NCBI RefSeq assembly: GCF_000425045.1 | Contig: NZ_AULA01000006.1 | Span: 1 to 64,000, forward strand | Direction of reading: 5' to 3' | Length of the DNA: 64,000 nucleotides | Source: Acidaminococcus intestini DSM 21505 | GTDB lineage: Bacteria > Bacillota > Negativicutes > Acidaminococcales > Acidaminococcaceae | Shown: one piece after another, positions 3 to 31,279 of the stretch | Layout: every line of letters starts with the position of its first letter | Position numbering within the stretch: the first letter of the stretch is position 1 | Notes under the pieces: generated by a model | Databases searched by the model: none | Seen by the model: the letters and a program-made list of their open reading frames with translations, nothing else | What the model was told of the DNA's origin: nothing | Translations under genes and position numbers: made by a program

Positions 3-284
3 CAGTATCAGCATGAATATTACAGAAGTGAATTGAAAAAGCATGGAATTATACAGTCAATGTCGCGTAAGGGCAACTGCTATGACAACAGTATTATGGA
101 GACCTTTTTTGGTCGGATGAAAAATGAAATGTATTACGGAAGCGAAAAAGAATACACCTCGTTCAAGGTATTTGCTAAAGCAGTGAAAGAATACATTCAT
201 TATTTCAACAAGGAAAGGATTCAGAAAAAAACAAAATGGATGCCTCCCGAAATATATCGGGAAACATCCACTAATGCCATTTAA
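3..284 (+). mobile_element. IS3-family transposase (OrfB), C-terminal fragment cut by window edge
   Basis: This is the end of a DDE transposase that starts before base 1; the frame is open from base 3. The residues MSRKGNCYDNSIMETFF and the following FGRMKNE match the end of the IS3/IS150-group catalytic core, and the E of KNE is the expected third catalytic acidic residue. The tail (YIHYFNKERIQ, then MPPEIYRE) is the usual IS3 C-terminus. Only about 94 residues are in the window, so whether the element is intact cannot be judged. It lies directly downstream of the convergent aldolase gene. Confidence 0.9.
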
Positions 285-4967: not shown

Positions 4968-5999
4968 ATGAAGGAGTATAATCTAGCAATCTTAGGTGCA
5001 ACGGGTGCAGTGGGGCAGGAATTCATCAATCTGCTCAATGAACGAGATTTCCCTTTTAAGAACCTGAAACTCCTGGCTTCTGCACGCAGTGCAGGCAAAG
5101 AACTGACGGTTCGGGGCAAGACCTATAAGGTCGAAGAAGCAAAGGCTGATTCCTTTAACGGAGTTGATGTTGCCCTATTTGCCGGCGGCTCGATCAGCAA
5201 GACGTTTGCACCAATTGCTGTCAAGGCAGGAGCCGTCGTCATTGATAATTCAAGTACCTATCGCATGGATCCTGAGGTTCCTCTGATTGTTCCGGAAGTC
5301 AATCCTCAGGATATTAAAAAGCATAAAGGCATCATTGCCAACCCGAATTGCTCAACCATCATCATGGTCATGGCCCTGAAGCCGATTTATGATCTTGCAC
5401 GCATCAAAAGAATCATCGTATCCACTTATCAGGCGGCCTCTGGTGCCGGTAAGGACGGTCTTGATGAACTGGAACGCCAGATTAAGGAAGCTGCTGCCGG
5501 CAAGGAAATGACTGCTCATATCTTCCCCAGCGCAAGTGCTGCCAAACATTTCCCGTTGGCCCTGAATCTTGTGCCGCAGATTGATGTCTTCCTTGATAAC
5601 CTTTATACAAAGGAAGAAATGAAGATGGTCAATGAAACCAAGAAGATTTTCTCTGATCCGGAAATGCGTATCACGGCGACAACGGTTCGTGTTCCTGTGT
5701 ACCGCAGTCACAGTGAATCTGTCAATGTGGAACTTGAACATGATGTGGAACTTGCTGACATCCGCAAGGCACTCAGCCAGTTCCCCGGTGTTGTTCTTCA
5801 AGATGATCCTTCCCAGCAAATCTATCCGATGCCGCTTTACACATCGGGCCTCAATGATGTTTATGTCGGCCGCCTGAGACGGGATGAATCGGCCGACAGA
5901 AGCTTCAATTTTTGGTGTGTTGGGGATCAAATCCGCAAAGGGGCTGCACTCAACACGCTCCAGATTGCGGAAACCATGGTCAAGAATAACTGGCTCTAA
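4968..5999 (+). CDS. asd: Aspartate-semialdehyde dehydrogenase
   Basis: Converts aspartyl-phosphate to aspartate semialdehyde with NADPH, the branch point to lysine, threonine and methionine. The 343-residue protein has the N-terminal GATGAVGQE nucleotide-binding loop at residues 9-17 and the catalytic cysteine motif NPNCSTI near residue 127. A DNSSTYRMD segment lies near 95. A strong AGAGGGGGAA site precedes the ATG. It is the second gene of the operon, placed before the kinase that supplies its substrate. Confidence 0.96.
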   Translation: MKEYNLAILGATGAVGQEFINLLNERDFPFKNLKLLASARSAGKELTVRGKTYKVEEAKADSFNGVDVALFAGGSISKTFAPIAVKAGAVVIDNSSTYRMDPEVPLIVPEVNPQDIKKHKGIIANPNCSTIIMVMALKPIYDLARIKRIIVSTYQAASGAGKDGLDELERQIKEAAAGKEMTAHIFPSASAAKHFPLALNLVPQIDVFLDNLYTKEEMKMVNETKKIFSDPEMRITATTVRVPVYRSHSESVNVELEHDVELADIRKALSQFPGVVLQDDPSQQIYPMPLYTSGLNDVYVGRLRRDESADRSFNFWCVGDQIRKGAALNTLQIAETMVKNNWL

Positions 6000-6016
6000 G
6001 AGGAGGCCCTACGCAG

Positions 6017-7249
6017 ATGAAAATCATCGTACAAAAATTCGGCGGAACGAGTGTGGCTACACCCCAGACCCGTCAACTCGTTGTCAAGAAAGTAAAGGAA
6101 GCCGTCGATGGAGGCTATGCGCCCATTGTCGTTGTTTCTGCCATGGGCCGCAGGGGAGACCCTTATGCAACAGACACGCTGATTGAAATGCTCCGTTCCG
6201 TCAATCCTGACCCGGATGTGCATGAATTGGACCTTATGATGGCCTGTGGGGAAATCATTTCTTCAACGGTTATGGCTTCCACCCTGCAGAAGGAAGGCTT
6301 CAAGGCCAAAGCCTTGACAGGTGGACAGGCTGGTATGGTGACAGATGGAAATTTTGGCAATGCCAAGATCAAGACAGTCCGTCCCAAGACACTGAAAACC
6401 CTTGTCGAACAAGGGATCATTCCTGTCATCTGTGGATTCCAAGGTGTCACTGATATGGATGGCAGCATTACGACCTTGGGACGCGGCGGCAGTGACACGT
6501 CAGCCGCGGCTTTTGGGGTTGCCGTAGATGCTGAAAAAGTAGAAATTTATACCGATGTCGATGGCGTCATGACGGCCGACCCCCGCATTGTTTCCGATGC
6601 CAAGATCATCAAGCAGATTTCCTATGACGAAATCCGTGAAATGGCGCATCAAGGTGCCAAGGTCATCCATCCCCGCGCCGTTGAGATTGTCATGCGATAT
6701 GGGGTACCCATGGTCGTTAAAAGCACCTTTTCTGATGCACCGGGTACCCTTATCACGACGGATGACAAGATTGATACCCTGGAAAGTCAGGATGATGTTG
6801 AAAGCAATCATGCCAGTGGAGTTGCCAGCCTCAAGGATCTTTCCTTCTTCCAAGTGGACCTGTCGCAGGATACGTCCAATAATGGCAGCAGGGTCTTTAA
6901 AGATTTGGCTTCTCACGGTGTCAGCATTGGGAGTTTGAGTTTCCAGCCTCAGTCCCTTATGTTTGCGGTCTATACGGTCAATGCCCCGAAAGCGGAGGAA
7001 GTCCTCAAAGCCGAGGGATACCATTATACCCTCACTAAGGAATGTGCCAAGGTGACGGTCGTGGGTTCCCATATGGGCGGTACGCCCGGGGTCATGGCTC
7101 GCTTTGTTGGGGCCCTCACGGCAGCTGGGGTAAAAATCCTGCAGACAACCGATTCTGACAACCTCGTTTCCGCTATTATCGAAGAACGCGACGTGAAGAC
7201 CGCGGTTTGCGCCCTTCACAGCGCATTTGCAACCCAGGAAGGAGAATAG
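6017..7249 (+). CDS. Aspartokinase with C-terminal ACT domains
   Basis: Phosphorylates aspartate, the first committed step of the aspartate family. The 410-residue protein has the kinase signature KFGGTSVA at residues 7-14, a GRGGSDTSA motif near 155 (ATP/aspartate site), and two ACT-type regulatory segments in the last 140 residues. Its length fits the single-chain LysC/DapG class. Being inside a lysine-riboswitch operon with dapB and dapA suggests a lysine- or DAP-responsive isozyme, but which effector it senses cannot be told. AGGAGG lies 9 bases before the ATG. Confidence 0.95.
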   Translation: MKIIVQKFGGTSVATPQTRQLVVKKVKEAVDGGYAPIVVVSAMGRRGDPYATDTLIEMLRSVNPDPDVHELDLMMACGEIISSTVMASTLQKEGFKAKALTGGQAGMVTDGNFGNAKIKTVRPKTLKTLVEQGIIPVICGFQGVTDMDGSITTLGRGGSDTSAAAFGVAVDAEKVEIYTDVDGVMTADPRIVSDAKIIKQISYDEIREMAHQGAKVIHPRAVEIVMRYGVPMVVKSTFSDAPGTLITTDDKIDTLESQDDVESNHASGVASLKDLSFFQVDLSQDTSNNGSRVFKDLASHGVSIGSLSFQPQSLMFAVYTVNAPKAEEVLKAEGYHYTLTKECAKVTVVGSHMGGTPGVMARFVGALTAAGVKILQTTDSDNLVSAIIEERDVKTAVCALHSAFATQEGE

Positions 7250-19632: not shown

Positions 19633-20961
19633 TTGAAAATAGGAGTTGTAAGCCTAGGATGCCCTAAGAACCTCGTTGATTCTGAGGTCATGATGGGACT
19701 TATCCGTGACCGTAAATGGGAACTGACTAATGATCCATCCCATGCCGACATCATTATCGTCAATACCTGCGGTTTCATCGAAAGTGCCAAAACCGAATCC
19801 ATCAATACCATCCTGCAGATGGCAGAATATAAGAAAATAGATTCCCATCGTAAACTCATTATGACGGGCTGCTTGGGTCAGCGTTATGCCCACGAACTTT
19901 TTGAACAGATGCCCGAAGTGGATGCAATTATCGGAACAGAATGTTATGATGCCATTGGGTCGGTCATTGATCGCGTGGAAAAGGGAGAGCGTTTTGTGCT
20001 GCTTGAAGCGCCTAAGCAATACTCCCAGCCTAAGAGCCGCGTCCTTTCCACTCCGCAATATACAGCTTATGTGAAGATTGCCGAAGGCTGCAGCAATCGC
20101 TGCTCCTATTGTGCTATTCCAAAAATACGGGGACCATATCGCAGCCGACCCTATGAGGAAATTGTAGAAGAAGTAAAATCCTTGGTTCAGCAGGGTACGC
20201 GGGAAGTTATCCTTGTTGCGCAAGATACGACGCAGTACGGGATTGATTTATACCACAAACTGCGTCTTTCCGAGCTTTTGCGTGATCTGAATGAGATCCC
20301 TGCCTTAACATGGATCCGCATCCTATACTGTTATCCCGAATCCTTTTCTGATGAACTCATAGAGACCATGGCCCAATGCAAGAAGGTTTGCCACTATGTT
20401 GACCTTCCGCTGCAGCACGCCAGCAATTCTCTTTTAAAGACCATGCGCCGTAGGGATACGCGGGAACAGGTTGAAATGCTCCTTGCTAAACTTCGCAACA
20501 GGATGCCTGACATCTGCCTGCGGACGACTTTTATTGTCGGCTTTCCAGGAGAAACTGAAGCGCAATTCGAGGAACTCCTTGATTTTGCTCAAAAAGAACA
20601 CTTCCAATGCGCAGGTGTCTTTACCTATTCACAGGAAGAGGAAACCGAGGCAGGTGCCATGAAAAACCAGATCGATGAAGCAACCAAGCAGGAACGCTAT
20701 CATCGCTTGATGGCACTGCAAGCCAAGATTTCTGAGGAAATCCAACAGGAACGGGAAGGAAAGGTCCTGACAGTTCTTGTGGAGGGACATGATGAAAAAA
20801 ATCCGGACCTTGCTGTGGCGCGGTCCTATGCGGAAGCTCCTGATATTGACGGTAAGATCTTTATTGAAGGTGCTAAGGGACTTCGGGTAGGGGACTTTGT
20901 CAACGTCCAGATCGATCAAGGCTTTACGTATGAGGCTGTTTCTCACCTCGTAAAGGAGTGA
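19633..20961 (+). CDS. rimO: Ribosomal protein S12 methylthiotransferase
   Basis: Radical-SAM enzyme that methylthiolates Asp of ribosomal protein S12. The 442-residue protein has the N-terminal [4Fe-4S] domain (GCPKNLVDSE near residue 9, NTCGFIESAKTES near 45), the radical-SAM motif CSNRCSYC near 149 and a C-terminal TRAM domain. NTCGFI.SA with GCPKN separates RimO from MiaB. The TTG start is supported by GAGGAG 6 bases upstream. It lies in the ftsK-rodZ-rimO-cinA order common in Bacillota. Confidence 0.93.
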   Translation: MKIGVVSLGCPKNLVDSEVMMGLIRDRKWELTNDPSHADIIIVNTCGFIESAKTESINTILQMAEYKKIDSHRKLIMTGCLGQRYAHELFEQMPEVDAIIGTECYDAIGSVIDRVEKGERFVLLEAPKQYSQPKSRVLSTPQYTAYVKIAEGCSNRCSYCAIPKIRGPYRSRPYEEIVEEVKSLVQQGTREVILVAQDTTQYGIDLYHKLRLSELLRDLNEIPALTWIRILYCYPESFSDELIETMAQCKKVCHYVDLPLQHASNSLLKTMRRRDTREQVEMLLAKLRNRMPDICLRTTFIVGFPGETEAQFEELLDFAQKEHFQCAGVFTYSQEEETEAGAMKNQIDEATKQERYHRLMALQAKISEEIQQEREGKVLTVLVEGHDEKNPDLAVARSYAEAPDIDGKIFIEGAKGLRVGDFVNVQIDQGFTYEAVSHLVKE

Positions 20962-20968
20962 ATGTTCT

Positions 20969-22210
20969 GTGGATGTAGAAATCATCAGTACGGGAACGGA
21001 ACTTTTATTGGGGGATATCCTTAATACGAGTTTCCAGCTCCTGTCAAGAACCCTGAATGACGCCGGTTTCAGTGTCCTTTATCAATCAACGGTGGGAGAT
21101 AATCAAAAGCGCCTTTTAGCTGCCCTTTCCATTGCGCAAACGCGTGCCCAGATCATCATCCTTACGGGCGGCTTAGGCCCCACAAGAGGCGATATTACAG
21201 CTCAGACCGTTGCCGATTTTCTTGGTCGTCCCCTTGTGCTGAGTGAGGAATGGCTGAAAAAGATGGAGGCTTATTTTGCCTCTCGCGGACTTGTCATGAG
21301 CCCCAATAACCGGAAACAGGCCTATGTACCGGAAGGGGCGGTCATTTTCAATAATGATGTGGGAACCGCACCGGGTATGGCGATTGAAACAAATGGCGGC
21401 AAGGTTTTAATCCTGCTGCCAGGACCGCCTGAAGAAACCAAGTTCGTCCTTGAAAATGAGATGATGCCTTACCTTCGCCAGAAATTCCAAAGTCAAGGGA
21501 TCATCCATTCCCGCATTCTTCATCTAAAAGGGTTGACCGAATCCATGACAGCCGAAAAACTTGATGACATTATCATGGCACAGACCAATCCGACAGTGGC
21601 ACTATACGCGCGCCGCGGTGAAATCCTTGTACGGATCACAGCAAAAGCTGCAAGCCTGGAAGATTGTATGGCACTCATTCACAACGAGGAGACCAAGATC
21701 CGTGCCAAAGTTGGAGAATATATTTACGGAACTGACTATGAGACTTTGGGGGAAGCACTGGGAAAGTTGCTGCGTGCTAAGGGCATGACCATCGCTTTTG
21801 CAGAATCCTGCACGGGAGGGCTTGCCTCAAGTCTGGTGACCGATGTACCGGGAAGTTCGGAATACCTCATTGGTTCCGTTGTTTCCTATACCAATCAGGT
21901 CAAACATGAGATCCTGGGCGTTCCCCAGGAAACGCTCGATACGTATACGGCGGTATCCAAGGAAACGGCGATTGCTATGGCTGAAGGGGTGCGCCGTTTA
22001 ATGCGCAGCGATATTGGTGTCAGTATTACAGGGATTGCAGGTCCTACAGGCGGTTCACCGGACAAACCGGTAGGACTGGTTTATGAAGCCTGTGCAACAA
22101 AGCATGGCACGGTTGTACAGGAACTTCGCTATCGGGCTTCGCGCACGACCGTCAAACTCCGTGCAGCAATGAACGCCATGGCCCTTGCCATGGATGAAGC
22201 TAAGAAATGA
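20969..22210 (+). CDS. cinA: CinA-family competence/damage-inducible protein (NMN deamidase type)
   Basis: A 413-residue two-domain protein. The MoaB/MogA-like N-terminal half (TGTELLLGD near residue 8, TGGLGPTRGD near 67) in relatives hydrolyses ADP-ribose-type substrates. The C-terminal amidase half (AESCTGGLASS near 277, GIAGPTGG near 355) deamidates nicotinamide mononucleotide. The start is GTG with AAGGAG 10 bases upstream, inside the end of rimO. No recA follows, unlike in many competent bacteria. Confidence 0.9.
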   Translation: MDVEIISTGTELLLGDILNTSFQLLSRTLNDAGFSVLYQSTVGDNQKRLLAALSIAQTRAQIIILTGGLGPTRGDITAQTVADFLGRPLVLSEEWLKKMEAYFASRGLVMSPNNRKQAYVPEGAVIFNNDVGTAPGMAIETNGGKVLILLPGPPEETKFVLENEMMPYLRQKFQSQGIIHSRILHLKGLTESMTAEKLDDIIMAQTNPTVALYARRGEILVRITAKAASLEDCMALIHNEETKIRAKVGEYIYGTDYETLGEALGKLLRAKGMTIAFAESCTGGLASSLVTDVPGSSEYLIGSVVSYTNQVKHEILGVPQETLDTYTAVSKETAIAMAEGVRRLMRSDIGVSITGIAGPTGGSPDKPVGLVYEACATKHGTVVQELRYRASRTTVKLRAAMNAMALAMDEAKK

Positions 22211-22241
22211 ATCGTGCCAAACAAGTATGTTAGGAGAACCT

Positions 22242-23840
22242 ATGACAGAACCAACAATTACGACCTTTGAAGACCTGAACCTTGACAAAAAGATTCTCTC
22301 TGCCCTGAAAGACATGGGCTTTGAGGAACCGTCACCCATCCAGAAAGGGGCCATTCCCCTTGCACTTGAAGGGGATGATATCATCGGACAGGCTCAAACC
22401 GGTACGGGCAAGACAGCGGCTTTCGGCATTCCCATCATCCAATCCATTGATGAAAAGAATCGCCATGTCCAGGCCTTGGTCATGTCCCCAACACGGGAAC
22501 TATGCATCCAGGTGGCAGAAGAAATCAGCAAAATTGGCCGGCTGAAGCGTGTCCATGTCCTGCCTGTATATGGCGGACAGCCGATTGAACGCCAGATTCG
22601 GAGCCTGAAACATGGCGTCCAGGTCGTTATTGGGACCCCGGGCCGCCTTTTGGATCATTTGCGCCGCGGCACCATCAGTTTGGACCATATCCACTTCCTC
22701 GTCCTTGATGAAGCGGATGAAATGCTTGATATGGGGTTCATTGAAGATATTGAGACCATCATCAAGGAAGTTCCGCCAGAACGGCAGACCATGCTTTTTT
22801 CAGCGACGATGCCCCGTCCAATCTTGAGCATCAGTAAAAAGTACATGCGGACACCAAAGGTGGTAGCCATCCACAAGGAAATTGTGACGGCTCCGACCAT
22901 TGATCAATATTATTATGAAACGCGCGATAAAGTGGATGGTCTGTGCCGAATCCTTGATACGACAGATGACTGCAAGATGATCATTTTCTGCCGCACCAAG
23001 AAAGGCGTGGATGAACTGGTCATTGCCCTTGCCACCCGTGGCTATGAGGCGGAAGGCCTCCATGGGGACCTGAGCCAGACGCAGCGTGATCGGGTAATGA
23101 AGAAATTCCGTCAAGATCAGGTTGATATCCTCGTTGCAACAGATGTAGCGGCCCGCGGTATTGATATTGACAATATCACCCACGTGGTGAATTTCGATGT
23201 TCCCCAGGATCCGGAAAGCTACGTCCACCGCATTGGCCGTACTGGTCGCGCCGGCAATACCGGCGTCGCCTTGACCTTTATCACTCCTCGTGAATTCCGT
23301 CAGTTAAAGCTCATTGAACGAAGCGTAAAGACGAAAATTATCCGCGGCCAGCTTCCGACCGATGCCAATGTCCTTGAAAAACAGCGGGAACAAATCATTT
23401 CCAAAATGCAGAGCATTCTTGAACAAAATCAATATCATGATTATCTGCCTATTGCAGAAGCCCTGGAAAATGATTATGACATTCATGATATTGCGGCGGC
23501 CGCTATCAAATTCATGCAGGAAGGAAATAAAGCTTTGGAAGAGCCCCAGACTGCGGATGCGCTGCCTGAAGCTCTTGCCAACACGGGGGCTCGCCCCGGC
23601 ATGGTTAGACTATTTATCAACATCGGCCGCAGTGCCAAAGTCACGGTACGGGATATCATCCAAAGCATTGCCATCGAAGCCGAGATTCCAGCAAAATCGA
23701 TTGGCCGCATCAGCATCTATGACAAATTCAGTTTTGTTGAAGTTCCTGCCGACTCAGCAGAAAAAGTCATGGCCGTGATGCATAAAAATACCATTCGCGG
23801 ATTCCGCGTCAACATGGAGCCCGCTAAAGCACGGAGATAA
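22242..23840 (+). CDS. DEAD-box RNA helicase with DbpA-type RNA-binding domain
   Basis: ATP-dependent RNA helicase of the CshA/DeaD group, 532 residues. Motifs appear in order: Q motif (FEDLNLD, PSPIQ), AQTGTGKT (I), PTRELC (Ia), DEAD (II), SAT (III), DVAARGID (V) and HRIGRTGRAG (VI). The last 75 residues form a DbpA-like RNA-binding domain (GMVRLFINIGRS, then VNM at the end). The ATG at 22242 has TAGGAG 5 bases upstream. Expected roles are ribosome assembly, cold growth and mRNA decay. RNase J is encoded upstream in the same direction. Confidence 0.92.
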   Translation: MTEPTITTFEDLNLDKKILSALKDMGFEEPSPIQKGAIPLALEGDDIIGQAQTGTGKTAAFGIPIIQSIDEKNRHVQALVMSPTRELCIQVAEEISKIGRLKRVHVLPVYGGQPIERQIRSLKHGVQVVIGTPGRLLDHLRRGTISLDHIHFLVLDEADEMLDMGFIEDIETIIKEVPPERQTMLFSATMPRPILSISKKYMRTPKVVAIHKEIVTAPTIDQYYYETRDKVDGLCRILDTTDDCKMIIFCRTKKGVDELVIALATRGYEAEGLHGDLSQTQRDRVMKKFRQDQVDILVATDVAARGIDIDNITHVVNFDVPQDPESYVHRIGRTGRAGNTGVALTFITPREFRQLKLIERSVKTKIIRGQLPTDANVLEKQREQIISKMQSILEQNQYHDYLPIAEALENDYDIHDIAAAAIKFMQEGNKALEEPQTADALPEALANTGARPGMVRLFINIGRSAKVTVRDIIQSIAIEAEIPAKSIGRISIYDKFSFVEVPADSAEKVMAVMHKNTIRGFRVNMEPAKARR

Positions 23841-23845
23841 GCACC

Positions 23846-25663
23846 ATGGATAACATCGTCTACGGGAAGACGGAGGGAATTAAAAAACGGGTCTTGGAGC
23901 AGCTTCAATCGCTCTACGACCTGCATCTTGATCAGGGCCAGCTCATTTCGGAGGAACTGGCCCTCCTTCTGCGTGATATTTCGGAATCCATTGGACGCGA
24001 AGTCTCTGTCTATGTGGACCGCAAAGGAATAATTTCCAGTGTTTCAGTTGGCAGTGATCATGCAGTTTCCCTTCAGGATACGGGAAGCCGGCGTTCTCTG
24101 TGGCGTTTGTCAGGAATCACTGCAATCCATACTCATCCGTCCGGCACATCTCGCTTAAGTGGGGTAGATATTTCCACACTTAAAAATTTGCGTCTTGACG
24201 GCATGGCGGCTCTTGCTTGGAAAGATGCGGAAGCGATGCCCCTTCTTTCTTTAGGCCTGATTACAGACCTTACTGATGATGGAGTGCCAGTTGCCGAGGA
24301 ATTTGGACCTTATTCTGCCAAAGAAGCTGCCCGTATTCCTTATGGAACGCTCTTGCAGACGATTGAACGAATTTTAGGAAAAAAGACACGCAGCGAAAAA
24401 ACGGGAAAAGAAGTAGAACGAGCCATGCTGGTTTCCCTTCATTGGGGAGAGGATTGTTCTCGCTATTGTGTTGAAGATTCCGTTGAAGAATTGGCACAGC
24501 TAGCAGAAACGGCAGGGGCCATTGTCGCAGCTAAATTTGTCCAGTCCCGTCCCAAACCAGATCCAGTATTTTTTATTGGAAAGGGGAAAGTTGAGGAAAT
24601 GGCCCTTTTTGCTCAACAGGAAGATATTGATTTATGCCTTGTTGACGATGACCTCTCTCCGGCCCAGCAACGCAACCTGGAACAAGCGTTAGGTGTCCGG
24701 ATCATTGATCGAACAGGCCTTATCCTTGACATCTTTGCCAAACGGGCCAGAACCAGTGAAGGTAAGCTTCAAGTGGAACTGGCTCAACTGCAGTATCTTC
24801 TGCCCCGCATCATGGGGCAGGGCGCCAGTTTGTCTCGCTTGGGCGGCGGCATCGGAACAAGGGGCCCTGGCGAAACTAAACTTGAAGTGGACCGCCGGCG
24901 GATCCGTGACCGTATCGGATTTTTAGAAGCCCAGATTGAAAAGATGAAGGGGGCACGCCGGACGCAGCAGAAAGCCCGGGAAAAAAGCAGGATCAAACAA
25001 GTCTGCCTTGTGGGCTATACAAACGCAGGTAAATCTTCCCTGCTGAATGCCCTTACCCATTCAGAAATCTATGCAGAAAATCAACTTTTTGCAACGCTTG
25101 ATCCAACAACGCGGCAACTCAGCCTGCCCAATAAGGAAGTTTGTACCTTGACAGATACGGTCGGCTTCATTCAACGCCTGCCGCATCAATTAGTGGCCGC
25201 TTTTCGTTCGACGCTCGAAGTCGTAAAAGGGGCAGATCTCCTGCTCCATGTGATCGATGTGAGCCATGAACTTCACGAGAAACAGGAGGAAGCGGTGCTA
25301 AGCGTCTTAAAGGAACTTGGTGTAACAGATACACCAATCCTGACCGTCTACAATAAGATCGATAAGCTGCCGGATCATGAGGGGCTAAAAAAGCGGCTTG
25401 ATCGAGAGGAATCCCTCGCCATTTCTGCCCGCTCTGGAGAAGGAATCCCCGCCCTTATTAAAAAGATTGCAAGCTTTCTCAATGAAGGAAAGACGGAAGT
25501 GACCCTGCTGATTCCTTATACAGAAACAAAGCTCTCGGCTCAGCTTCACGAAAAAGCGACGGTCCTATCCGAAAGTTACGGGGAAAAGGGAGCCCTTATG
25601 AAAGTCCGTTTGGATAAACATGATGTAAAGCACTATGCCCCTTATCTAAAGGAGGAAACATAA
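23846..25663 (+). CDS. hflX: GTPase HflX with N-terminal JAMM-like domain
   Basis: Ribosome-splitting GTPase of the Obg-HflX class, 605 residues against about 420 for the usual form. Residues 190-375 are the HflX N-domain and coiled coil, with FIGKGKVEE and GGGIGTRGPGETKLE. The G domain starts near 384 (Walker A GYTNAGKSS, then DTVG and NKID). The extra first 180 residues contain HTHPSGTSRLSGVD at 95-108, a perfect HxHP-x6-SxxD JAMM metalloprotease motif, after a RadC-like strand pattern. The extension's function is unknown. The gene before the PLP lyase matches the ynbA-ynbB order in Bacillus. Confidence 0.92.
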   Translation: MDNIVYGKTEGIKKRVLEQLQSLYDLHLDQGQLISEELALLLRDISESIGREVSVYVDRKGIISSVSVGSDHAVSLQDTGSRRSLWRLSGITAIHTHPSGTSRLSGVDISTLKNLRLDGMAALAWKDAEAMPLLSLGLITDLTDDGVPVAEEFGPYSAKEAARIPYGTLLQTIERILGKKTRSEKTGKEVERAMLVSLHWGEDCSRYCVEDSVEELAQLAETAGAIVAAKFVQSRPKPDPVFFIGKGKVEEMALFAQQEDIDLCLVDDDLSPAQQRNLEQALGVRIIDRTGLILDIFAKRARTSEGKLQVELAQLQYLLPRIMGQGASLSRLGGGIGTRGPGETKLEVDRRRIRDRIGFLEAQIEKMKGARRTQQKAREKSRIKQVCLVGYTNAGKSSLLNALTHSEIYAENQLFATLDPTTRQLSLPNKEVCTLTDTVGFIQRLPHQLVAAFRSTLEVVKGADLLLHVIDVSHELHEKQEEAVLSVLKELGVTDTPILTVYNKIDKLPDHEGLKKRLDREESLAISARSGEGIPALIKKIASFLNEGKTEVTLLIPYTETKLSAQLHEKATVLSESYGEKGALMKVRLDKHDVKHYAPYLKEET

Positions 25664-25666
25664 AAC

Positions 25667-26902
25667 ATGATCAATTGGGATGAAATCGAAGAGAAAGCCT
25701 TGCTTGAGGTGCAAAAGACGAGCTTTATCCATGAAAAGACTGCCCTTCTCAACACTCGTAAGGTCCTTAAAGCATTCCGTAATCATCAAGTAGCCGATTA
25801 TTACCTGAAACCAAGCACGGGCTACGCCTATTCTGATACGGGAAGGGATGAACTGGATGGAATCTATGCGGAACTCTTCGGCACGGAAGCAGCCCTTGTA
25901 AGAAGTCAATTCGTTTCTGGTACCCATGCTCTTGCCGTTGCTTTATTAGGTGTTTTAAAGCCGGGAGATGAGCTGATTGGAGCTACGGGAGAGCCCTATG
26001 ATACGATGCAGACCATCATTGGTTCCCCCATCAAGACCCCGGGCTCCCTAGTCAATCAGGGTATTAGCTATCACGAAATCCCCATGATTGCCAATCATCC
26101 CAACATCGACGCCATTGTGGCCGCAATTACCGACAAGACCCGGATGGTCCACGTACAGCGTTCCTGCGGCTACAGCAGCGTCCGCAAAACACTGACTGTC
26201 GATGAAATCGGAGAAATCTTCAGTGCAGTCAAACGGGTTAAGCCTGATATCATCTGCTTTGTCGATAACTGCTATGGCGAATTTATCGAAGATAAAGAAC
26301 CAACCCAAGTCGGTGCTGACCTCATGGCCGGTTCCCTCATCAAGAACCTAGGCGGCGGTATTGCTCCGACCGGCGGTTATATCGTGGGACGCAAGGATCT
26401 TGTCGAACTTGCTTCCTATCGTCTCACGGCGCCAGGATTAGGCGGAGAAATGGGAGCAACGCTTGGGGATACGGCCCGTGAATTTTATGAAGGCCTGTTT
26501 TTTGCGCCTCATGTAGTCCTTCAGGCCATCAAGACTTCGATTTTTGCGGCTTCCGTATTCCAGAATCTCGGATTCGAAGTGTCTCCGCTACCAGAAGAAC
26601 GCCGCAGCGATATCATCCAAACGATTACCCTAAAAACCAAGGAAAATCTCTGCCGCTTTTGTGAGGCCATTCAGGCAAGTTCTCCCGTTGATGCCCATGT
26701 AACACCTGTACCCAGCCATTTGCCGGGCTATCAGGATGAAGTCATCATGGCTGCCGGCACCTTCGTCCAAGGGGCTTCCATAGAACTGAGTGCTGATGCC
26801 CCTGTGCGCGAACCCTTTACGGTATACCTTCAAGGGGGCCTGACTTTTGAACACGGTCACATTGCCATTATGGAAGCAGCAAGAAAAATCATGGATAAAT
26901 AA
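25667..26902 (+). CDS. Methionine gamma-lyase/aluminium-resistance family PLP protein (YnbB-like)
   Basis: Fold-type I PLP enzyme of the family annotated as methionine gamma-lyase or aluminium resistance, 411 residues. Visible features are the VSGTHAL segment near residue 85, VDNCYGEF near 202 and GSLIKNLGGG near 225. The last carries the probable PLP Lys. Family members have an uncertain physiological substrate (cysteine/methionine-type thiols). AAGGAGG lies 11 bases upstream, inside the end of hflX. A very strong terminator ends the rightward gene run after it. Confidence 0.85.
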   Translation: MINWDEIEEKALLEVQKTSFIHEKTALLNTRKVLKAFRNHQVADYYLKPSTGYAYSDTGRDELDGIYAELFGTEAALVRSQFVSGTHALAVALLGVLKPGDELIGATGEPYDTMQTIIGSPIKTPGSLVNQGISYHEIPMIANHPNIDAIVAAITDKTRMVHVQRSCGYSSVRKTLTVDEIGEIFSAVKRVKPDIICFVDNCYGEFIEDKEPTQVGADLMAGSLIKNLGGGIAPTGGYIVGRKDLVELASYRLTAPGLGGEMGATLGDTAREFYEGLFFAPHVVLQAIKTSIFAASVFQNLGFEVSPLPEERRSDIIQTITLKTKENLCRFCEAIQASSPVDAHVTPVPSHLPGYQDEVIMAAGTFVQGASIELSADAPVREPFTVYLQGGLTFEHGHIAIMEAARKIMDK

Positions 26903-26942: not shown

Positions 26943-26996
26943 AAAATAGGAGAGGGGAGGGATAGAAAAATCCCTCCCCTCTCCTATTTTACTTAA
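26943..26996 (+). terminator. Very strong, probably bidirectional terminator
   Basis: A perfect 21-bp stem (26943-26963 with 26970-26990) around a 6-base loop. It begins AAAATAGG and ends CCTATTTT, so both strands have a T-run after the stem. It closes the RNase J to PLP-lyase run. Confidence 0.9.
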
Positions 26997-30001: not shown

Positions 30002-31279
30002 TTAGGCCCTGGAAAGTCGCTCAGCACAGCGCTGAGCTTCGGCGCAAACTTTTTCGTAATCAAGGGTCAGATATTCGCCGTTTTCATAAAGCAATTTTCC
30101 ATCTACAAAAACATGGCTGACACTGTGGGAACTGGCGGCATTGCAAAGAAGGGAATAGCGGTCATTGCGGGGGAACCATTCCGGTTCTTTCAGATCATAA
30201 AGGACAAGATCTGCTTTGTATCCTGTTGTGACGGCACCCACTTCATCAAAGCCGATGGCTTTGGCGCCTTCTAGGGTTCCGCATTTGATTGCAGTTTTAG
30301 CGGGCACGCTTCTAGGATTATCCTCTTTGACTTTGGACAGCATGGAGGCTAGACGTACCTCTTCAAGCATATCCAGATTATTGTTGCTTGATGCCCCATC
30401 CGTTCCAAGACCGAGGACAATGCCTTTTTGGAGCATTTGGCCGATGGGGGCAATTCCGCTTGCCAGTTTAAGGTTGCTCTGCGGGTTGGAGGCAATGCGT
30501 ACATGATGCTTCCTTAGGATTTCCATATCCTTGTCATCAACATGGACGCAATGGGCAGCAAGGGTTCCCAGCTCAAATAAGCCCAGTTCTTCCATCAAGG
30601 CAATGGGCGATTTGTCATATTTCTTGAGACAGTCCGCCACCTCCCCTTTTGTTTCCGCAAGATGCATGTGGATTTCGGCTCCTTTTCGGGCCGCTTCCTT
30701 TACGATGCTGCAAATATATTCCGGAGCGCAGGTATATGGCGCATGGGGGCCATACATCACATGAATCCGGTCATTTTCGACGCCGTTCCACGTATCAAAT
30801 AGAGCTGAATTCTCATCAAGACGGGCTTTGCCATCGGCTGCGGAAGACCCGGTAAGGCCCCTTGATAACGCAGCACGGATTCCCGATGAAGCCACGGCAC
30901 GGGCCGTGGCTTCCATAAAGAAGTACATATCGGCAAATGCCGTTGTACCTGTACGGATCATTTCCGCTATGCCAAGGAGACTGCCCCAATACACGTCATT
31001 TCCCGTGAGATGATTCTCCATGGGCCAGATTTTGTCCTGCAGCCAGTCCATAAGGAGCATATCATCGGCATAACTGCGAAAAAGAGTCATAGCGATATGA
31101 GTATGGGCGTTTACTAAGCCCGGCGCAAGAAGATGGTCTCTGCCATCGATTACGAGGCTGCCTTGAACCGGCTCTTGACCGATATAGGCAATGCGTCCAT
31201 CCTTTATCCCAACTTGATAGGTTTTTCCGTCATTTCGATCCAAGATCTCAGCGCCTTGGATCACGGTATCGTAAAACAT
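30002..31279 (-). CDS. mtaD: 5-methylthioadenosine/S-adenosylhomocysteine deaminase
   Basis: Zinc amidohydrolase that deaminates MTA and SAH (and often adenosine) to the inosyl forms. The 425-residue protein has the metal motif NAHTHIAMT near residue 57, YGPHAPYTC near 180, HLAETKGE near 208 and the catalytic GTDGASSNN near 290. Its place directly after MTA phosphorylase in the same operon fits salvage of SAM by-products. The ribosome-binding site (AAGAGGG) lies 12 bases before the ATG, a long spacing. Confidence 0.9.
   Translation of the reverse strand: MFYDTVIQGAEILDRNDGKTYQVGIKDGRIAYIGQEPVQGSLVIDGRDHLLAPGLVNAHTHIAMTLFRSYADDMLLMDWLQDKIWPMENHLTGNDVYWGSLLGIAEMIRTGTTAFADMYFFMEATARAVASSGIRAALSRGLTGSSAADGKARLDENSALFDTWNGVENDRIHVMYGPHAPYTCAPEYICSIVKEAARKGAEIHMHLAETKGEVADCLKKYDKSPIALMEELGLFELGTLAAHCVHVDDKDMEILRKHHVRIASNPQSNLKLASGIAPIGQMLQKGIVLGLGTDGASSNNNLDMLEEVRLASMLSKVKEDNPRSVPAKTAIKCGTLEGAKAIGFDEVGAVTTGYKADLVLYDLKEPEWFPRNDRYSLLCNAASSHSVSHVFVDGKLLYENGEYLTLDYEKVCAEAQRCAERLSRA

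Follow-up and report, generated by a model that had tools for sequence, protein, structure and literature searches.

HflX is a very widely conserved GTPase that rescues ribosomes under stress and antibiotics, and the JAMM-type zinc proteases form a family that removes ubiquitin in human cells. Bound to GTP, HflX inserts into the ribosomal interface and pushes helix 69 aside with its first domain, upon which the subunits separate; it extends as far as the peptidyl transferase centre, and its targets are ribosomes in a vacant or deacylated state (PMC12493154). In mycobacteria, HflX has an N-terminal extension of 39-58 aa; this stretch before the first HflX domain is in contact with uL16 and helix 38 and extends to helices 69-71. 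The same 2025 review mentions N-terminal extensions for some HflX proteins of Clostridium and Paenibacillus (PMC12493154). The published JAMM motif reads EXnHS/THX7SXXD, and in AfJAMM E22 is on beta-2, H67 and H69 are on beta-4 and D80 is on alpha-2 (PMC300881).

The DNA analysed here, called the window, is a stretch of 64,000 nucleotides from Acidaminococcus intestini DSM 21505. A preliminary description, made from the letters alone, had claimed that its HflX carries an extra N-terminal domain with a JAMM motif, and had suggested that a metal-dependent hydrolase may be built into a ribosome-rescue GTPase, for example to process nascent chains, a ribosomal protein or a modifier. The features of the locus are collected in Table 1.

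Table 1. Features of the hflX locus in the window
Feature	Position	Strand	Basis
Radical-SAM methylthiotransferase (UPF0004 + TRAM_2), RimO-like	19633..20961	+	Domains; RimO name inferred
cinA	20969..22210	+	PF02464
DEAD-box helicase with DbpA RNA-binding domain, 5 nt upstream of hflX	22185..23840	+	PF00270, PF03880
GGAG, Shine-Dalgarno-like, 9 nt before ATG	23833..23836	+	Read directly from sequence
hflX with N-terminal JAMM domain, 605 aa	23846..25663	+	ORF, Pfam, NCBIfam, full-length model
N-terminal domain, residues 1-185	23846..24400	+	No Pfam match; conservation; model pLDDT 88.7
Predicted MPN/JAMM core, residues 31-165	23936..24340	+	VIA-align range 31..165 onto PfJAMM1, Rpn11, CSN5, AfJAMM, RadC
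Codon of E52, putative catalytic Glu, on strand 52/53-58	23999..24001	+	Invariant 58/58 and 72/72; aligns with RadC Glu
Arginine-rich stretch, residues 82-92 (R82, R83, R87, L88, G90; consensus R92)	24089..24121	+	Conservation
JAMM motif H95-T-H97-P-x6-S105-x2-D108 (H95 at nt 24128)	24128..24169	+	Sequence, conservation
Helix 166-187, joins JAMM domain to HflX	24341..24406	+	Predicted model
HflX core (ND1, helical domain, G domain), residues 193-543	24422..25474	+	TIGR03156; PF13167, PF16360, PF01926
HflX C-terminal domain, residues 516-593	25391..25624	+	PF19275
PLP enzyme, methionine gamma-lyase family (YnbB type)	25667..26902	+	PF06838
20-pair inverted repeat with T runs, between hflX operon and lexA	26943..26990	.	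Sequence

The window protein is a true HflX with an additional N-terminal domain

The protein belongs to the HflX family, as residues 193-543 match TIGR03156 with 469.8 bits against a cut-off of 216.75 (NCBIfam). The translation contains the GTP-binding motifs GYTNAGKS (390-397), DTVGF (437-441) and NKID (503-506), and the corresponding GxxxxGKS, DxxG and NKxD are invariant or nearly so across the aligned relatives. From residue 193 onwards it is an ordinary HflX, comparable to the HflX/HflXr of E. coli, Listeria and mycobacteria and to mitochondrial GTPBP6. The best structure matches of the full-length model were the ribosome-bound HflX/HflXr 8uu8, 8a57, 8kab and 5ady; the window HflX is 38-44% identical to the solved bacterial ribosome-bound HflX structures, which differ from it in having no JAMM domain. 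The match to these structures suggests that the window HflX could bind or split ribosomes.

The presence of an N-terminal extra on HflX was confirmed, with residues 1-185 preceding the core. These residues matched no Pfam family and gave one non-significant NCBIfam match (E 0.12), so automatic annotation would read plain 'GTPase HflX'. The record of a Fusobacterium relative is likewise annotated simply 'GTPase HflX'. The start codon is credible because of the spacing of the GGAG, the conservation of early residues (G7 in 57/58 and G11 in 49/58 of the sequences described below) and a pN of 0.24-0.32, far below the pS of 0.65-0.80, in the N-terminal domain of four same-genus relatives. Judged from these sequences, the domain is under purifying selection that is somewhat looser than that on the HflX core.

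The JAMM motif is conserved

The full motif E52-x42-H95-T96-H97-x7-S105-x2-D108 is an exact fit to the published JAMM pattern, and HxHP-x6-SxxD is present at residues 95-108, exactly where the preliminary description had placed it. A motif match in a single protein is, alone, not decisive. The motif could be an accidental match in an unrelated N-terminal extension, given that the window domain has no significant Pfam or NCBIfam match and that H[S/T]H-x7-SxxD is expected by chance about 8e-5 times per 605 aa, or about 0.09 times per proteome. A second HTH-x7-SxxD match was found in the window at 31105 on the minus strand, within an ORF (30002-31279) encoding an amidohydrolase-family protein (PF01979), where it probably represents ordinary metal-site histidines.

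In a set of 58 sequences (the window protein and its relatives), retrieved with the window protein or its N-terminal domain as similarity query and without selection for the motif, E52, H95, T96, H97, S105 and D108 were invariant in 58/58. The four motif residues singled out earlier for a conservation survey (H95, H97, S105 and D108) are therefore kept in close and distant relatives alike, with domain identity to the window dropping to about 30% and the catalytic residues unchanged. The upstream catalytic glutamate that had been sought is most readily E52, which shares this invariance and aligns with a glutamate of RadC. The motif residues were also conserved in a 72-sequence set, which was fetched with a pattern containing HTHP, so that only E52 (72/72), S105, D108 and D118 are independent evidence. 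When N-terminal domains were pooled, the motif was present in 143/151 and E52 in 143/143 of the motif-bearing domains; as this split is defined by the motif, E52 is the sole independent result within the 143.

Profile comparisons pointed in the same direction. Weak Prok-JAB (PF14464) matches were found in 31/41 relatives (best E 4.8e-5), although the gathering cut-off was not reached, with no match to the window domain and the HflX matches in the genome search below the cut-off. Weak matches to RadC PF04002 occurred in 15/41 relatives, and 3-4/41 matched TIGR00608 / NF000642 with a best E of 0.03, which does not place them in the RadC family. The N-terminal domain profile retrieved AMSH-LP from the PDB at E=0.0034, while a PDB search with the single window sequence gave nothing relevant. 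In hhalign against eleven RadC sequences the domain aligned with P=3.9e-7, and two RadC proteins were picked up by the N-terminal domain profile in the genome search. Comparison with a stand-alone bacterial JAB group gave no significant match (P=0.19), from a thin alignment of three sequences.

The conservation down to about 30% identity, the invariant E52, the Prok-JAB, AMSH-LP and RadC profile matches and the predicted MPN fold (below) together indicate that the motif is real. Against the conservation in all 58 sequences, the fold match and the profile matches, an accidental origin of the motif is refuted, and we give it a negligible probability.

Stand-alone JAB proteins of 137-145 aa, with strong PF14464 matches and an HSHP motif, were observed in three Bacillota genomes, each beside a frame of 427-481 aa.

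Predicted fold and comparison with known JAMM proteins

An AlphaFold2 model of the N-terminal domain, built from 72 aligned sequences, had a mean pLDDT of 88.7 and a pTM of 0.85. Foldseek matches to this model were weak, the best (E 0.013) being the COP9 signalosome with CSN5, followed by rows for RadC, proteasome MPN subunits, PfJAMM1 and Cap3. When VIA-align structural re-alignment was run over the top 1000 chains, PfJAMM1 came first (Z 7.3, 111 residues, 3.6 A), with RadC, Rpn11, the EMC MPN subunit, CSN5, AfJAMM, BRCC36 and AMSH next. Among the matches listed, 50/50 were MPN/JAB proteins, an identity which we take from their titles and general knowledge, with Z between 5.2 and 7.3, and a Z below 8 can reflect merely a common arrangement. 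Foldseek alone is weak, and the assignment relies on the agreement of all the listed rows together with the motif; on this basis the predicted fold of the domain is the MPN fold. The fold comparison proposed in the preliminary description, against RadC, Rpn11 and archaeal JAMM1, has thus come out in favour of its claim.

In the model, E52 is at the start of strand 52/53-58, H95 and H97 are on strand 91-97 and D108 is on helix 106-115, the same placement of the Glu, the His pair and the Asp on secondary structure as in AfJAMM. The distance from the Glu to the first His is 43 residues in the window domain and 45 in AfJAMM. PfJAMM1 and AfJAMM (5ld9, 5lda, 1oi0, 1r5x) share the MPN fold and the full E/H-H/S/D site with the window domain, but they are small separate proteins, PfJAMM1 having been solved with the ubiquitin-like SAMP2, whereas the window domain is the front of a GTPase and begins with an additional strand and helix (residues 1-30).

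The closest bacterial relative by profile is RadC (UPF0758; 2qlc), with 33% identity over 66 columns in an alignment that includes the Glu and the H-x-HPSG segment. Unlike the window fusion, RadC has HNHPSG and stands alone with a length of about 230 aa; a RadC of its own is encoded in the window genome (G000:C22). The eukaryotic JAMM deubiquitinases AMSH / AMSH-LP, Rpn11 and CSN5 have the same fold as that predicted for the window domain. The HTHP...LSxVD segment of AMSH-LP is nearly identical to that of the window in an alignment covering the HTHP...SxxD part only, and Rpn11 too is carried by an NTP-driven machine. Unlike the eukaryotic hosts of JAMM proteins, these bacteria are not known to have a ubiquitin system. 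Taken together, sequence and model point to a JAMM-superfamily domain on a true HflX, one that is not RadC and is not covered by Prok-JAB at its cut-off.

No description of a fusion between HflX and a JAMM, JAB or MPN domain was found in the searchable literature, which mostly excludes subscription papers and preprints. The fusion, its spread and its dead versions appear to be undescribed, while both halves are known families.

Distribution and inheritance

A search of eight other genomes of the window's genus found the full fusion in 8/8. Most sampled genomes of the window's family and class carry it too, as their usual HflX; in some genomes of the class no HflX was detected at all. Among named organisms, Acidaminococcaceae (Phascolarctobacterium and relatives) are nearest to the window. 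The fusion is also common elsewhere in Bacillota. When genomes were sampled evenly across the phylum, the N-terminal domain was matched in 74/398 of them, or 72 after removal of two RadC proteins, and HflX was found in 195/249 sampled genomes, mostly without the JAMM domain. Two Fusobacterium records show that this genus also has the fusion.

The domain was fused to HflX in every relative whose placement could be judged. No unfused copy was found among the 398 genomes, the two small-frame matches being the RadC proteins, and the remaining matches were all in HflX-sized open frames except for one of 324 aa, cut off at the end of its contig. In a tree built from HflX cores, the domain states intact, degenerate and none require only five changes, against about 30 with shuffled labels. 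The fusion is therefore old and mainly vertically inherited, with either a single origin or several compatible with this quick tree.

One contig listed as viral (IMGVR_UViG_3300010167_001092, positions 5001-6824) carries a complete JAMM-HflX of 607 aa. As this is the only such IMG/VR contig and it carries the whole fusion, there is no sign of a viral family and a phage origin was rejected; the contig may be a mislabelled bacterial one.

Degenerate versions of the domain

Some lineages retain the domain and have lost its catalytic residues. In families f51 and f97, the domain and the RRxxxRLSGLR stretch are kept, and both histidines and most of the remaining catalytic residues are gone. Family f90 has kept E52 and mostly S105 and D108, and has lost both His. 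The tree places f51/f97 apart from f90, so the motif has been lost at least twice. A similar decayed domain was recognised by eye in the 616 aa HflX of genome G175, a third candidate. The arginine-rich stretch, whose consensus R92 is T in the window protein, is kept in most intact domains as well as in f51/f97. These motif-less MPN-like N-terminal domains of HflX belong to several separate families (L177-L181, L185, L187, L190, and L247 at G175:C1:2881500-2884500).

These sequences indicate that catalysis is not always needed, the domain outliving its catalytic residues in at least two lineages. The dead versions suggest two separable roles, one in binding or placement and one in catalysis, and the pair of intact and dead HflX domains parallels the eukaryotic MPN-plus and MPN-minus proteins.

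The domain could be mainly a ribosome- or rRNA-binding module that aids splitting, with the JAMM site as a zinc-binding relic or a metal/redox sensor. Such a module would fit the survival of the fold after loss of the motif, in at least two lineages and the third candidate, as well as the retention of the basic stretch R82-R92 and D118 in some dead versions and the action of the mycobacterial N-terminal extension on rRNA helices 68-71 (PMC12493154). However, E52 and S105 are not needed for holding a metal and yet are invariant in 58/58 (E52 also in 143/143), and the intact families f19 and f20 reduce the arginine stretch but keep the JAMM residues. We therefore regard this explanation as rather unlikely. 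Catalysis is favoured over a purely structural zinc site, because conservation is no lower at the non-ligands E52 and S105 than at the metal ligands.

Gene neighbourhood

In the window, hflX is in a tight gene run (RimO-like enzyme, CinA, helicase, hflX, YnbB-type enzyme) which lexA faces, and the inverted repeat between them is probably the terminator at the operon end. Among 81 compared loci (80 loci and the window), a YnbB-type enzyme is the next gene after hflX in 47 and the DEAD-box helicase is a neighbour in 29. The recurrent neighbours are YnbB, LexA, the helicase, CinA, the RimO-like enzyme and, in Sporomusaceae, a small gene (about 73 aa) whose size and place make Hfq its probable identity. 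The DbpA-type helicase and the RimO-like enzyme probably have ribosome-related roles. Beside hflX in these loci, no gene of the ubiquitin-like, E1 or substrate kind recurred.

Proposed function

The best explanation, which we consider probable on balance, is a two-function protein: a ribosome-splitting GTPase with an N-terminal JAMM (MPN-plus) zinc hydrolase domain, which HflX brings to the ribosome interface to cut a ribosome-bound protein. For the zinc, the catalysis and the position on the ribosome, which we infer, the following steps are envisaged. A zinc ion would be coordinated by H95, H97 and D108, with E52 as the residue that activates water and S105 stabilising the transition state, in the manner of AfJAMM. 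HflX-GTP would bind the 50S interface and split the ribosome, and the JAMM domain, tied by helix 166-187 to the first HflX domain, would thereby be carried to the interface. Being attached at the same end as the mycobacterial extension, it should lie near the contacts of that extension (uL16, helix 38 and helices 69-71). A domain in this position would have a substrate at the interface, and it would cut a peptide or isopeptide bond there, whether in the tail of a ribosomal protein, in a factor bound to the ribosome (a hibernation factor, for instance) or in a tag that has been attached.

The preliminary description is upheld in that an intact JAMM domain is fused to HflX; of its three suggested substrates, nascent chains are the weakest, since the ribosomes on which HflX acts are vacant or deacylated (PMC12493154). 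A ribosome-bound protein is a better candidate for cleavage than a nascent chain, because nascent chains are in the tunnel, HflX prefers ribosomes without peptidyl-tRNA and its N-terminus would be at the subunit interface.

The complete and conserved motif, its placement on secondary structure, the predicted MPN fold, the profile matches, the constant fusion to HflX and the probably ribosome-related neighbours (DbpA-type helicase and RimO-like enzyme) speak for the two-function protein. Counted against it are the best Foldseek E of 0.013 and a VIA-align Z below 8, the loss of catalytic residues in at least two lineages that retain the domain, the many bacteria whose HflX has no such domain, and the lack of a linked ubiquitin-like, E1 or substrate gene recurring beside hflX. 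It is a tentative possibility that a bacterial ribosome-splitting GTPase has a built-in JAMM metalloprotease which, by the same principle as Rpn11 on the proteasome, cleaves a protein or tag bound to the ribosome while ribosomes are recycled, and that this is a previously unknown proteolytic step of ribosome rescue across much of Bacillota. If the JAMM domain is active, ribosome recycling in Negativicutes and many Clostridia would include a proteolytic step that has not been looked for. If true, there is a defined active site open to mutation, and the natural dead versions provide a ready comparison.

A more specific form of the two-function explanation is that the JAMM domain clips HPF, or the tail of an interface ribosomal protein, as HflX recycles stored ribosomes. 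To our knowledge, the S. aureus HflX that dissociates 100S ribosomes has no JAMM domain, which counts against the HPF reading, and the sequence does not single out HPF. The reading is attractive in that S. aureus HflX dissociates HPF-bound 100S ribosomes (PMC7196661). HflXr and HPF are together in a solved 70S complex (8uu7, from its title), and the position expected from the mycobacterial extension would also be suitable; overall, we think that this form is distinctly unlikely.

The domain could also replace the cysteine protease Prp in the trimming of bL27. Prp occurs in Bacillota and Fusobacteria, as does the fusion, and both would act on the 50S subunit. However, the window's own genome has Prp, as do 12/13 genomes tested, with intact or dead JAMM domains alike, which makes such a replacement very improbable, and it was set aside.

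Other HflX arrangements

One genome (G033), from a member of the class near Pelosinus on the tree, has two full-length JAMM-HflX copies (C1:2319760-2321526 and 3553196-3554965). In four genomes of one group (L249, on G084:C29, and L209, L210 and L215; family f60), the HflX open frame is 740-830 aa, far beyond the core. The L249 frame continues into an apparent tRNA-dihydrouridine synthase (DusB-like), which replaces the usual HflX C-terminal domain.
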